From: Desulfovibrio aminophilus DSM 12254
GTDB lineage: Bacteria; Desulfobacterota; Desulfovibrionia; Desulfovibrionales; Desulfovibrionaceae
Assembly (NCBI RefSeq): GCF_000422565.1
Contig: NZ_AUMA01000010.1
Span: forward strand, 124,001 to 188,000
Length of the DNA: 64,000 nucleotides
Direction: 5' to 3'
Shown: piece after piece, positions 13,958 to 20,194 of the stretch
Position numbering within the stretch: the first letter of the stretch is position 1
Layout of the letters: every line of letters starts with the position of its first letter
The notes under the pieces: model-generated
What the model was told of the DNA's origin: nothing
What the model saw: only the letters and a program-made list of their open reading frames with translations
Databases searched by the model: none
Made by a program: the position numbers and the translations under genes

Positions 13958-14064
13958 GGCAAGCCCCCCTATACTCGCCCCCATGAAGAGTCAGGGCCAG
14001 GCCGCCAGGGGAGCAGCTTTTCGACGCCGGGGATCAGCCGGAGCCTAGGCCCTGGGAATGCGCC

Positions 14065-15418: not shown

Positions 15419-16642
15419 TCAAGATGCGTCCTGGTGGCGAAGGGGGATGACCTTCCCGCCTTGGCGGAGCCCGTCCAGGAAGTCCGCCCAGGCCTGCATC
15501 ATCTTGCGGCGTTCGGGCAGAAACTCGGCGTAGTTGTAAGCCGCCCGCACCTTGTTCCGCTCGGCGTGGGCGAGCTGGCGCTCGATGGCGTCCCGGTTCC
15601 AGCCCTGCTCGTGCAGGAGCGTGGAAGCCATGCTCCGGAAGCCGTGGCCGGTCATTTCATCCTTGCTGTAGCCCAGGCGGCGCAGGGCCGCGTTGACCGT
15701 GTTCTCGCTCATGGGGCGGGACCGGCTGCGTTCCGAGGGGAAGACATAAAGGCCCGCGCCTGTCAGGGGATGGAGTTCCCGCAGGATTGTTACGGCCTGC
15801 CGGGACAGCGGCACGATGTGCTGCTCCTTCATCTTCATCTTGGCCGCCGGGATGCGCCATTCCCCGGCCGCCAGATCGATTTCGGACCACTCGGCCCGTC
15901 GCAATTCGCCGGGACGCACGAAAACCAGCGGGGCCAGCTTGAGGGCACACTGGGTCACGAGGGTCCCCTGGTAGCCTTCCACAGCCCGCAAGAGCGCGGC
16001 CACAGCCTGGGGATCGGTGACGCTGGCGTGGTGCTTCTGAACGGTCGGGGGCAGTGCGCCGCGGAGGTCCAGGGAAGGGTCGCGCTCGGCCCGGCCCGTG
16101 GCGACGGCGTAGCGGAAGACCTGGCCGCACTTCTGCAACTGGCGGCGGGCCGTCTCCAGGACTCCCCGCGACTCCATGCGTCGGATCACGGCCAGCAGCT
16201 CGGGAGGGGTGATCTCGCGGATAGGACGCTCTCTGAGAAACGGAAGCACGTTCTTTTCGAGGCGCTGCCAGATGTCCTCGGCTCCATCCGGGGTCCAGGT
16301 GTGCTTGAACTTGTCGAACCACTCCCGGGCGATGTCTCCGAAGGTTTCTTCCTGGGCCCGGGCTTCGGCCTGCTCCGCCTTGCGGGCCGCGGCCGGGTCC
16401 ACACCCTGGGCCAGGACCTTGCGGGCTTCGTCGCGTCGTTCGCGGGCCGCGGCCAGAGACACGGCGGGGTATGCCCCCAGGGCGAGACGCTTTTCCTTGC
16501 CCCCAAAGCGGTACTTGAGCCGCCAGAGCTTGGCCCCGGCCGGGGAAACCTCCAGGTAAAGCCCCCCGCCGTCGAAGAGACGCTTCGGCTTGGGGCCGGG
16601 CTTGGCGTTGCGGATAGCGGTGTCGGTCAGCTTTCCGATCAT
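15419..16642 (-). CDS. int: Tyrosine recombinase/integrase, P4 family
   Basis: A protein of 407 aa. Residues 1-90 are the P4-type N-terminal arm domain (LTDTAIRNAKPGPKPKRLFDG, GLYLEVSPAG, RLALGAYPAVSL). Residues 100-190 are the core-binding SAM-like domain. Residues 205-380 are the catalytic domain, with Arg243 in RPGELR, HGFRS (His333, Arg336), His359 in QLAHAE and the nucleophile Tyr369 or Tyr371 in AAYNYAEF. It would integrate the element at the tRNA-Ser 3' end, which lies 163 bp from its start. The start codon overlaps an inverted ATGCCCCCAT motif, so it may shut off its own synthesis. Confidence 0.95.
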   Translation of the reverse strand: MIGKLTDTAIRNAKPGPKPKRLFDGGGLYLEVSPAGAKLWRLKYRFGGKEKRLALGAYPAVSLAAARERRDEARKVLAQGVDPAAARKAEQAEARAQEETFGDIAREWFDKFKHTWTPDGAEDIWQRLEKNVLPFLRERPIREITPPELLAVIRRMESRGVLETARRQLQKCGQVFRYAVATGRAERDPSLDLRGALPPTVQKHHASVTDPQAVAALLRAVEGYQGTLVTQCALKLAPLVFVRPGELRRAEWSEIDLAAGEWRIPAAKMKMKEQHIVPLSRQAVTILRELHPLTGAGLYVFPSERSRSRPMSENTVNAALRRLGYSKDEMTGHGFRSMASTLLHEQGWNRDAIERQLAHAERNKVRAAYNYAEFLPERRKMMQAWADFLDGLRQGGKVIPLRHQDAS

Positions 16643-16804: not shown

Positions 16805-16818
16805 TGGCGGAGGGGGAG
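16805..16818. repeat. Proximal attachment site inside tRNA-Ser 3' end
   Basis: TGGCGGAGGGGGAG on the + strand, the complement of the last 14 bases of the tRNA. Identical to 7865-7878. Integration therefore regenerated an intact tRNA. Confidence 0.85.
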
Positions 16819-16894
16819 GGATTCGAACCCCCGGACAGGTCGCCCCGCCAGTGGTTTTCAAGACCACCGCCTTCAACCGCTCGGCCACCCCTCC
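16805..16894 (-). tRNA. tRNA-Ser(UGA)
   Basis: A 90-nt class II tRNA: acceptor GGAGGGG paired with CCCCTCC, D-loop GCCGAGCGGTTGAAGGC, anticodon loop CTTGAAA with anticodon TGA, a long variable arm, T-loop GTTCGAATC and encoded CCA. The last 14 bases are the integration target of the element on its left. It lacks any disruption. Confidence 0.97.
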
Positions 16895-17010: not shown

Positions 17011-17442
17011 ATGAAGTCGGCGGAAGAAGCCTTCACCCGCTATCTGGCCGAAAACGGCCTGAAGATGACCCCGCAGCGGCGGACCATCCTCGACGCGTTC
17101 CTGAACGCCCCCGGCCACATCTCCTCTGAAGAACTCTACGCCTCGGTCAAACGCTCGGACGAGAGCATCGGCCAGGCCACGGTCTACCGCACCCTCAAGC
17201 TGTTGGCCGATTCCGGGCTGGCCCGGGCCCATGACTTCGGGGACGGGGTAACCCGCTACGAGCCCCTCTGGGGCCAGGAACACCACGACCACCTCATCTG
17301 TGAGTCCTGCCGCAAGACCATCGAGATCATGGACCCGACCATTGAGCGCCGACAGGAAGAACTCGCCAAGCGCTACGGATTCACCCTCTCCCACCACAAG
17401 ATGACCCTCTACGGGCTCTGCCCGGACTGTCGCAAGAAATAA
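17011..17442 (+). CDS. Fur-family metal-dependent transcriptional regulator
   Basis: A protein of 143 aa from ATG 17011 behind AAAAGGAAC. Residues 1-80 form the winged-helix DNA-binding domain (LKMTPQRRTILDAFLNAPGHISSEEL in parts, QATVYRTLKLL). Residues 85-143 form the dimer/metal domain with HHDHLICESC and LCPDC, giving the structural Zn Cys4 site and a His/Asp regulatory site. The family includes Fur, PerR and Zur, and the sequence alone does not settle which. It is separated from the ars operon by 73 bp and could control the palindrome upstream of rubrerythrin. Confidence 0.9.
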   Translation: MKSAEEAFTRYLAENGLKMTPQRRTILDAFLNAPGHISSEELYASVKRSDESIGQATVYRTLKLLADSGLARAHDFGDGVTRYEPLWGQEHHDHLICESCRKTIEIMDPTIERRQEELAKRYGFTLSHHKMTLYGLCPDCRKK

Positions 17443-17515: not shown

Positions 17516-17884
17516 ATGCGGACCTTTCTGAAGATCATGAAGGCGTTGTCGGACCCTGGACGGGTCAAGGCCCTCAAGATGCTGGAAGGCGGCGAACTGT
17601 GCGTCTGCCGCATCCAGGAGGCACTCGGTCTGGCCCAACCCACGGTGTCCCGGCACCTGCGCCGCCTGACGGAGGCCGGGTTGGCCCAAAGTCGCAAGAA
17701 GGGCCCTTGGGTCTACTACCGTCTGGCGGACGAACCGCGCCCGGCCATGGTCGGAAACGTCCTGGCCCAATTACGGCAGTGGCTCAACGAGGACGCCGAT
17801 GTGCTCCACGCCTTGGAGCTGCTGGCGCGGACCTACGAAACACATCCCGAGGGCGGCTCCTGCCCCCGGCCGGAGGAGGATTGA
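17516..17884 (+). CDS. arsR: ArsR-family arsenic-responsive repressor
   Basis: A protein of 122 aa. A winged-helix core has LSDPGRVKALKML, GLAQPTVSRHLRRL as the recognition helix, and WVYYRL as the wing. The ELCVCRI motif near residue 28 provides the CxC arsenite site seen in ArsR. It would release the operon when As(III) or Sb(III) binds. First gene of arsR-arsM-acr3-arsC. Confidence 0.93.
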   Translation: MRTFLKIMKALSDPGRVKALKMLEGGELCVCRIQEALGLAQPTVSRHLRRLTEAGLAQSRKKGPWVYYRLADEPRPAMVGNVLAQLRQWLNEDADVLHALELLARTYETHPEGGSCPRPEED

Positions 17885-17888
17885 GGCC

Positions 17889-18650
17889 ATGAAGGATCTC
17901 AAGGACATTGTCCGGGAGAACTACGCCCACATCGCCCGCGAGGGAGGATCGTGCTGTTCTCCCGGTTCCCTGCAACAGGCCGCGGCCAGCCGCCGAGCCG
18001 GGTATGACGACGAGAGCCAGCTCGTCGTTCCGGCCCACGCGGACCTCGGCCTGGGTTGCGGCTTCCCGCTGGACCGCGCCGGGCTCCGCCCGGGCGAGAC
18101 GGTGCTGGACCTCGGGTCCGGGCCGGGCATGGACGCCCTGCTGGCCGCCCGCGAGGTGGGCCCCGACGGCCAGGTCGTCGGCGTGGACATGACTCCGGAG
18201 ATGATCATACGCGCCCGGGCCAACGCGACCGAGGCCAAGGCGGCCAACGTCCGCTTCCTGCTGGGGGAACTCGAACGCCTGCCGCTCCCGGACGCCTGGG
18301 CCGACGCGGTCATCTCCAACTGCGTGGTGAACCTCTGCCCGGACAAACGCGCGGTCTATGCCGAAATCTTCCGTGTGCTCAAACCCGGGGGCCGGGTCTG
18401 CATCGCGGACGTGCTCCAGGAACGCCCTCTGCCGGAGGAAATGGCCCGGGACTCGCGGGCTTGGTGCGCCTGAGTGTCCGGCGCGGCCACCCCGGGCGGG
18501 GTGGAGGATATTCTCAACGAGCTGGGATTCGTAAACATCTACATCGAGCGCAAGGCGAGAAGCCGGGAAATCATCGCGGGATTCGGCGTCCCCGGGGCCG
18601 AGGACTACGTGGCCTCGGCCTATGTGCTGGCCCGCAAACCGACGAGTTGA
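17889..18650 (+). CDS. arsM: Arsenite S-adenosylmethyltransferase, selenocysteine-containing
   Basis: Read through the in-frame TGA at 18471-18473 the gene encodes 253 aa ending at TGA 18648. The N-terminal part has [24 protein letters not shown] (Cys57), the SAM motif [14 protein letters not shown] and [11 protein letters not shown] (Cys145). After the TGA the same frame continues [19 protein letters not shown] (in parts), which is the normal ArsM C-terminal domain. ArsM needs three conserved cysteines; the third sits in a C(V/I)xGA motif, and here the TGA falls exactly there (WCA-U-VSGA, residue 195). A strong hairpin with a G-starting loop begins 13 nt after the TGA. So UGA is read as selenocysteine, with Sec replacing a catalytic Cys. 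A stop-truncated 194-aa product would be dead. RBS GGAGGAGG. Confidence 0.82.
18487..18504 (+). promoter_or_regulatory. Bacterial SECIS-type hairpin in arsM
   Basis: CCACCCC (18487-18493), loop GGGC, GGGGTGG (18498-18504): a perfect 7-bp stem. The apical loop starts 20 nt after the UGA, inside the 16-37 nt range of bacterial SECIS elements, and has G as first loop base, the feature SelB requires. It lies wholly within coding sequence, as bacterial SECIS do. Confidence 0.72.
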
Positions 18651-18657
18651 GGCACGC

Positions 18658-19752
18658 ATGAACGGATCCGTGACCAAACGCCTGTCGTTCCTGGACCGCT
18701 GGCTGACGCTCTGGATCTTTCTGGCCATGTTCGCGGGGGTGGGAGCCGGTTCTCTCTTCCCGGGAGTGAAGGGCGCGATCGGCGCCTTTCAGGTCGGAAC
18801 CACGAACATCCCCATCGCCGTCGGCCTCATCCTGATGATGTACCCGCCCCTGGCCAAGGTGCGCTACGAGGAACTGGGCCGCGTCTTCAGAAACGGCCGG
18901 GTTCTGGCGCTGTCTCTGGTCCAGAACTGGCTCATCGGCCCCGCGCTCATGTTTCTCCTGGCCGCGGCCTTCCTCTCCGGAAGACACGACTACATGGTCG
19001 GGCTCATCGTCATCGGTCTGGCCCGCTGCATCGCCATGGTCATCGTCTGGAACGACCTCGCCGGAGCCGACCGGGAATACTGTGCCGGGCTGGTGGCCTT
19101 CAACTCCATCTTCCAGGTGCTGTTCTTCCCACTCTACGCCTGGATCTTCGTCACCGTGCTGCCGGGCTGGTTCGGCCTCTCCGGGGCCGTGGTGGACGTC
19201 TCCATGCGGCAGATCGCCGAGAGCGTCTTCATCTATCTGGGCATCCCCTTCCTGGCGGGAATGCTCTCGCGCTTCCTGGGGCTGCGGATCAAGGGACGGG
19301 AGTGGTACGAACAGGTCTTCACCCCGCGCATCGGGCCCGTGACCCTGTTCTCCCTGCTCTTCACCATCCTGGTCATGTTCTCGCTCAAGGGCGAATACAT
19401 CGTGGCCCTCCCCCTGGACGTGCTGCGCGTGGCCCTGCCCCTGTGCATCTACTTCCTGGTCATGTTCCTGGCCTCCTTCTGGCTCTCGCTCAAGGCCAAG
19501 GCCACCTATGAGCAGGCGGCCACGCTGAGCTTCACCGCCGCCTCCAACAACTTCGAGTTGGCCATCGCGGTCTGCATCGCGGTTTTCGGGCTGGATTCGG
19601 GGCAGGCCTTCGCGGCGGTCATCGGGCCGCTGGTGGAGGTGCCCGTACTCATCGGCCTGGTCAACGTGGCCCTGTGGATCAAGCGCAGATACTTCCCCCA
19701 TGCTGTCGCCACGCCCGCCGGAGTGTGTCATGTCGCCTGTCTGCCGAAGTGA
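18658..19752 (+). CDS. acr3: ACR3-family arsenite efflux transporter
   Basis: A protein of 364 aa with about ten membrane segments. MSFLDRW-like start ([19 protein letters not shown]), [37 protein letters not shown] with the conserved Cys of the transport path, and [19 protein letters not shown] are ACR3 hallmarks. It exports arsenite by proton exchange. ATG 18658 is 7 bp after the arsM stop. The last 23 codons overlap the start of the arsC gene. Confidence 0.95.
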
Positions 19753-20194
19753 AGACCGCGCGGACAAGACGCGCATCCTCTTTCTCTGCACGGGCAACTC
19801 CTGCCGCAGCCAGATGGCCGAGGGTTTCGCCCGGGCGCTCAAGTCCGCCGAGGTCGAGGCCTGGTCCGCCGGGGTGGAGCGCCACGGCCTCAACCCCCTG
19901 GCCGTGCGGGTCATGGCCGAAGCCGGGGTGGACATTTCCGGCCAGTCCTCCAAGCTCGTGGAGGAACTGCCGACGCTGGAATTCGACTGGGTGGTGACGC
20001 TCTGCGGGCACGCGAACGAGAACTGCCCGTTCTTCCCGGGCCCGGTTCGACGCCTGCACAAGGGCTTCGACGATCCTCCGACCCTGGCGGCCGGGACGGC
20101 CACCCAGGAGGAGGCCCTGGCGCCCTACCGCCGCGTGCGGGATGAAATCCGGGCCTTTGTGGAGGGCCTGCCCGGGAGCCTCACGACGGGCTGA
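19730..20194 (+). CDS. arsC: Arsenate reductase, low-molecular-weight phosphatase (thioredoxin-coupled) type
   Basis: A protein of 154 aa from ATG 19730, preceded by GGAG; it overlaps acr3 by 23 nt. The P-loop [17 protein letters not shown] has the nucleophile Cys. A second pair lies in [12 protein letters not shown] and the general acid in the DDPP segment, so the catalytic triad of S. aureus-type ArsC is present. It reduces arsenate to arsenite for ACR3 and ArsM. Last gene of the operon. Confidence 0.92.

Follow-up and report, generated by a model that had tools for sequence, protein, structure and literature searches.

The arsM gene and its in-frame TGA

The locus studied here raises the question of how a TGA codon inside the reading frame of an arsenite methyltransferase gene is decoded. 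The gene lies in a 64,000-nucleotide stretch of the Desulfovibrio aminophilus DSM 12254 genome, referred to here as the window, and its features are collected in Table 1. The arsM frame starts with ATG at 17889 and ends with TGA at 18648-18650, and translation with TGA read as selenocysteine (Sec, U) gives 58 residues after codon 195. Other than TGA195, the frame contains no further stop or frameshift. Direct reading and translation thus confirmed the proposal of an earlier note on this DNA that codon 195 is an in-frame TGA followed by continued ArsM coding. The same note expected annotation to end the gene at residue 194, and the mechanical list of open reading frames does end arsM at 18473.

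The read-through protein, with C in place of U, scored 290.9 bits against NF008823, passing the cut-off of 263. The protein ended at TGA195 scored 256.3 bits, under the cut-off. Only one match to the ArsM protein at E <= 1e-30 occurs in the genome.

Table 1. Features of the arsM locus (positions in the window)
Feature	Position	Strand	Basis or remark
Fur-family regulator, upstream of ars genes	17011..17442	+	PF01475; conserved neighbour in the nearest species (G065)
arsR/smtB-family repressor	17516..17884	+	NF033788, 92.7 bits (cut-off 55); PF01022
arsM, arsenite methyltransferase selenoprotein, 253 residues with predicted Sec195	17889..18650	+	NF008823 and PDB ArsM matches
Predicted Sec codon 195, in-frame TGA, at CmArsM Cys224 position	18471..18473	+	Sequence, translation, alignments
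Candidate bacterial SECIS, hairpin of 7 bp with a GGGC loop	18487..18504	+	Folding, comparison with relatives
acr3 arsenite efflux transporter	18658..19752	+	TIGR00832, 443.9 bits (cut-off 282.8)
arsC-like arsenate reductase, thioredoxin/LMW-phosphatase type	19730..20194	+	TIGR02691, 150.1 bits, under cut-off 174.3; PF01451

Selenocysteine decoding machinery

We searched the genome (3.42 Mb, 99.98% complete) for sel genes, whose absence the earlier note had named as grounds for abandoning a Sec reading. All were found: a single selA (603.3 bits), selB over its cut-off, selD (317.2 bits, with one TGA in frame in its own N-terminal stretch), and a tRNA-Sec with anticodon TCA (79.5 bits). Decoding of UGA as Sec is therefore available in the cell, and the search did not overturn the note's reading. 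Two formate-dehydrogenase-like frames elsewhere in the same genome each carry an in-frame TGA (L136, G000:C10:13610-14359; L137, C4:74900-75655). They are perhaps further selenoproteins; no match in that search passed a family cut-off.

Conservation of the TGA codon

A search across the order found ArsM matches in 89 of 348 genomes. We read 50 of these matches (L021-L070), namely all those flagged as having a TGA within the frame, those with the best scores, and four more. TGA stood at the aligned column in 20 (one residue beside it in L061), and the other 30 had TGC or TGT. Among the TGA loci are five close orthologues; the remaining 15 form a group that is more distant. All five close orthologues (L021-L025, from genomes G000, G065, G066, G029, and G031) have TGA at the same column. 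Four of them come from other species of the order, so TGA195 is not a lone sequencing error. A further contig scan, which may omit entries from this genome or from one very close to it, returned six loci; the near full-length relatives among them (L071-L073) were all Cys-type, and the partial methyltransferase matches (L074-L076) were excluded.

In a first tree of 53 rows, for which the program warned of long branches, all 33 Cys-form rows have TGC or TGT at the Sec column. The five close orthologues group together among Cys forms with 100/99 support, and the 15 others stand apart. At the level of the phylum, 132 of 395 genomes had matches. The loci read were 29 newly returned ones and 20 more (ten flagged for TGA, ten hand-picked Cys forms); because they were partly hand-picked, counts among them are not prevalences. 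The resulting hand-picked tree of 101 rows was of a quick kind without bootstraps, with short or duplicate rows dropped. It holds 39 rows with Sec at the third arsenic site, of which 18 keep the middle Cys and are termed canonical here. Seventeen of these 18 form one all-Sec clade (SH-aLRT 97), and L107 falls in an unresolved fork. Sec-ArsM may have had one origin or several: the 53-row tree gives 2 Sec/Cys changes and the 101-row tree 3, of which well-supported branches force only 1.

The sequence beyond the TGA is under constraint. On either side of the codon, dN was lower than dS in all six orthologue pairs. For L021-L022, dN was 0.074 against a dS of 0.32 after TGA, and 0.085 against 0.33 before it. 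After the codon, the L024-L025 pair gave 0.233 against 2.28, and constraint was weakest in L021-L023 (0.268 against 0.43). Such values would not be expected of a dead tail.

A candidate SECIS hairpin

The candidate SECIS hairpin has its 5' arm at 18487-18493, its loop at 18494-18497, and its 3' arm at 18498-18504. The earlier note had described a 7-bp GGGC hairpin starting 20 nt after the TGA. Its account of stem and loop holds; the 20 nt distance is that to the start of the loop, and the stem starts 13 nt after the codon. The hairpin agrees with the bacterial SECIS model (7 bp, GGGC, 20 nt, -13.4 kcal/mol), and chance often does as well in this GC-rich sequence. Against dinucleotide shuffles its z score was -1.12, with 26 of 200 folding as well, and 273 of 5,000 synonymous recodings reached its energy. 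We therefore rejected the folding energy of the window hairpin as proof of a SECIS. Its significance comes instead from comparison with relatives.

For that comparison we scanned 60 nt from the Sec or Cys codon for an uninterrupted stem fitting the bSECIS model published in PMC13188914. At E <= -5, a fitting hairpin followed the codon in 17/18 canonical Sec genes, 20/21 other Sec genes, and 8/63 Cys genes; at E <= -7.5, the counts were 12/18, 17/21, and 3/63. The SECIS named in the earlier note is thus upheld by the enrichment of such hairpins after TGA in relatives, and the window hairpin taken by itself says little.

The stems differ in sequence while pairing is kept. When 17 canonical rows were fitted individually (L107 left out, loop lengths chosen for pairing), 118 of 119 cells paired, with G-U counted. 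The sole unpaired cell is a C-C mismatch in the stem of L023, which belongs to the same genus as the window; the perfect-stem scan gave this locus only a 4-bp hairpin of -3.3 kcal/mol. Covariation was counted over 12 rows of one geometry, with the window's row excluded. All 84 cells paired, 6 showed changes in both partners, and none of 500 shuffles reached the covariation score. Two of the five measures in this 12-row count were no better than shuffles, namely both-side pair changes (158/500) and further pair types (479/500).

Stop codon, ordinary amino acid, or selenocysteine

If TGA195 were a real stop, arsM would encode a truncated enzyme or be a decaying pseudogene. The codon does formally close the frame, and residues 1-194 retain the SAM-binding part, with a score of 256.3 bits to NF008823. 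However, the same TGA occurs in five species of the order and throughout the 17-row clade, the tail is constrained in every pair compared, no other stop or frameshift mars the frame, and the neighbouring ars genes are intact. We consider a real stop very improbable. Read-through with insertion of Trp, Cys, or some other standard amino acid gains some room from the fact that Sec is predicted here from sequence, not chemistry. Against it stand the tRNA-Sec and SelA, SelB, and SelD of this genome, the SECIS-like hairpin, which follows TGA far more often than it follows the Cys codon in homologues, and the presence of Cys, the usual partner of Sec, at this column in the non-TGA homologues read. 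An ordinary amino acid at position 195 is accordingly hardly to be expected, and selenocysteine, almost certainly inserted here, is by far the best reading of TGA195, its incorporation being predicted from these comparisons.

The ars cluster and its surroundings

The cluster runs arsR-arsM-acr3-arsC on one strand, with a Fur-family gene upstream, and arsM is flanked by intact ars genes. The start codon of the arsC-like gene is uncertain, as an ATG at 19700 is likewise in frame. Control by ArsR and cotranscription of the cluster would fit this arrangement.

We read the surroundings of eight hand-chosen loci (L126-L133) among the 17 other canonical Sec-arsM rows, using tblastn with the window genes. 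At least one of arsR, acr3, and arsC lies near Sec-arsM in seven of the eight. The nearest species (G065) has the full order fur-arsR-arsM-acr3-arsC, G066 has arsM-acr3-arsC on a contig that ends just beyond arsM, and the arrangement in G685 is acr3-arsM. The acr3 matches found in G475 and G549 reach only 29-32% identity. The G031 orthologue had no match to the window fur, arsR, acr3, or arsC within the 12 kb read.

Downstream of acr3, the nearest species has two arsC-like stretches (L126:6567-6965 and L126:7038-7454). The window arsC is 91% identical to the second and 45% to the first. Upstream of the fur and ars genes, the minus strand of the window carries an Rfam int-alpA RNA (13978-14055, 39.9 bits, gathering 35.8), an integrase-like ORF identified by eye (15419-16642), and a tRNA-Ser (16805-16894). 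Together these are perhaps an integrated element ending at the tRNA, just upstream of fur and the ars genes.

Arsenic site, fold, and proposed mechanism

In a phmmer alignment to CmArsM (4fr0), with numbers counted along the alignment, C57, C145, and U195 of the window protein align with C72, C174, and C224. All three arsenic-site positions are thus kept, with Sec in place of the third Cys, and CmArsM residues 72, 174, and 224 are described as integral to arsenite binding (PMC5552862). The claim in the earlier note that Sec replaces the third ArsM Cys is supported by the C224 alignment, the sel genes, and the Cys homologues with TGC or TGT.

An AlphaFold2 model built on a four-row alignment had a pLDDT of 81.3 and a pTM of 0.82, with residues 18-28 below 50. 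The ten best PDB rows in Foldseek all belong to ArsM (TMq 0.61-0.71, rmsd 4.3-7.2). Similar TM-scores were reached by other methyltransferases, so the model indicates a fold class and not a substrate. The window ArsM is predicted by this model to have a SAM-dependent methyltransferase fold like that of solved ArsM.

We propose that the SelA/SelB/SelC/SelD system decodes UGA195 as Sec, directed by the downstream hairpin. Cys57, Cys145, and Sec195 would most likely hold As(III), with SAM donating the methyl groups. At neutral pH a selenol loses its proton more easily than a thiol does, and its selenolate should bind As(III) well. The Sec195 selenolate would thus most likely ligate trivalent arsenic during methyl transfer, and it may also speed reduction of the pentavalent methylated intermediate. 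Ligation of arsenic by selenium and any effect on rate are inferences, and the selenol could alter As(III) binding or methylation, as the earlier note had suggested. Taken as a whole, an ArsM whose UGA195 is decoded as Sec by SelA, SelB, SelC, and SelD with this hairpin, and whose selenolate most likely ligates As(III), is the reading we favor, at a probability of roughly 95%.

Two other accounts accept the protein and differ on what it does. Sec195 could be real and act mainly in a redox or resolving role, perhaps with Cys193 as a CxU pair, without directly ligating arsenic. Cys193 stands two residues before Sec in all five near orthologues (WCAU or WCGU), and the title of Fomenko 2007, the paper cited for the Sec-ArsM family, concerns redox-active cysteines. 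However, the remaining 12 rows of the Sec clade of 17 lack Cys193, CxC also occurs in some Cys forms (L078-L080, L087, and L125) and so is not tied to Sec, and residue 195 corresponds to CmArsM C224, reported as integral to arsenite binding (PMC5552862). The first two of these points also led us to reject CxU (Cys193-Sec195) as a Sec-specific motif. We judge a mainly redox role unlikely, while giving it some weight. The enzyme might instead methylate a substrate other than arsenite, such as selenium, antimony, or organoarsenic species; its family assignment is based on sequence, and other methyltransferases match the model fold about equally by TM-score. The protein nevertheless passes the NF008823 cut-off, keeps the three arsenic-site positions, and is encoded between arsR and acr3, which makes another substrate improbable. 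Arsenite remains the substrate that we assign to the predicted Sec enzyme.

Other predicted Sec groups among ArsM-like genes

A separate group of 21 ArsM-like genes (L052-L066, L108-L110, and L113-L115) has Sec at the third site. In place of the middle arsenic-site Cys (SNC), 19 of them have Gly and 1 has Ala, with L114 outside this count. Four members were scored, and their nearest models were NF041537, NF047649, and NF041536, all under cut-offs.

Among 29 genomes of one class, four genomes of one family (G634, G734, G726, and G653) have TGA at the second residue of an N-terminal Cys-Cys pair (C-TGA-PS). In these loci (L142, the same gene as L111; L143; L144; and L145, the same gene as L112), 250-252 residues are open after the TGA and the third-site Cys is kept. 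The L143-L145 proteins are 69-72% identical to that of L142 over the whole length. In minimum free energy folds, three of these loci show a hairpin 13-16 nt downstream of the TGA, two of the three being identical in this stretch; the fold of L142 picks another pairing. Two of the genes were scored against NF008823 and gave 237.1 and 234.3 bits, under the cut-off. This TGA seems to mark a second Sec position in the ArsM family. Sec at two arsenic-site positions might mean that As-Se ligation, and not generic redox protection, was selected, giving a kinetically distinct anaerobic class of Sec-ArsM; we offer this as a tentative idea that is somewhat more doubtful than not.

Implications

In flooded soils, arsenic methylation has been attributed in part to sulfate reducers (PMC6776024). 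If the ArsM of some anaerobes depends on selenium, selenium supply could control the formation of methylated arsenic. In that case, surveys that end genes at TGA would miss or shorten these ones. The family also provides naturally occurring Sec and Cys counterparts with which to ask what selenium contributes at a metalloid-binding site.

Comparison with known systems

Sec-containing ArsM has been recorded several times. A 2026 review (PMC13188914) lists arsenite methyltransferase NF008823 with the motif UxxG and the example WP_011987699.1, and places Sec-ArsM just above its part 'predicted with high confidence', citing Fomenko et al. 2007. Sec-ArsM is also in the list of PMC9312934, and PMC5029168 gives 41 Sec-ArsM in 39 organisms. 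A table row in PMC2398784, as we understand it, gives 8 Sec-ArsM sequences from ocean data, and the same paper counts arsM as one of the selenoprotein families that eukaryotes share. PMC8938466 treats selenium and arsenic in hadal sediments, and the portion of its text consulted does not mention Sec-ArsM. The literature that we found on Sec function in ArsM consists of catalogues and surveys, with no enzyme assay among them; Fomenko 2007 may hold such a test.

The fused double selenoproteins NF041537, NF041536, and NF047649 have a related methyltransferase domain, theirs with Sec listed as UxxG. The window protein scored 169.4, 140.5, and 157 bits against these models, below their respective cut-offs of 510, 575, and 460. 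Since it is far under the cut-offs and matches only the first 211-227 positions of the models, the fused second domain is absent. The Cys-type enzymes CmArsM (4fr0), CrArsM (5evj), and human AS3MT (8xt7) share the same kind of fold, whereas their third site is Cys and that of the window protein is predicted to be Sec. The window ArsM is also shorter, with 253 residues compared to chains of 377-387 for CmArsM and CrArsM. Its closest counterpart is the Sec form of NF008823: the window protein passes the model, and its motif, U-VSG, is the UxxG listed in PMC13188914. No defined difference from that form was found in a comparison that covered the model and the motif. Sec-ArsM is thus already catalogued, and the window gene is a well-supported addition to this known class.
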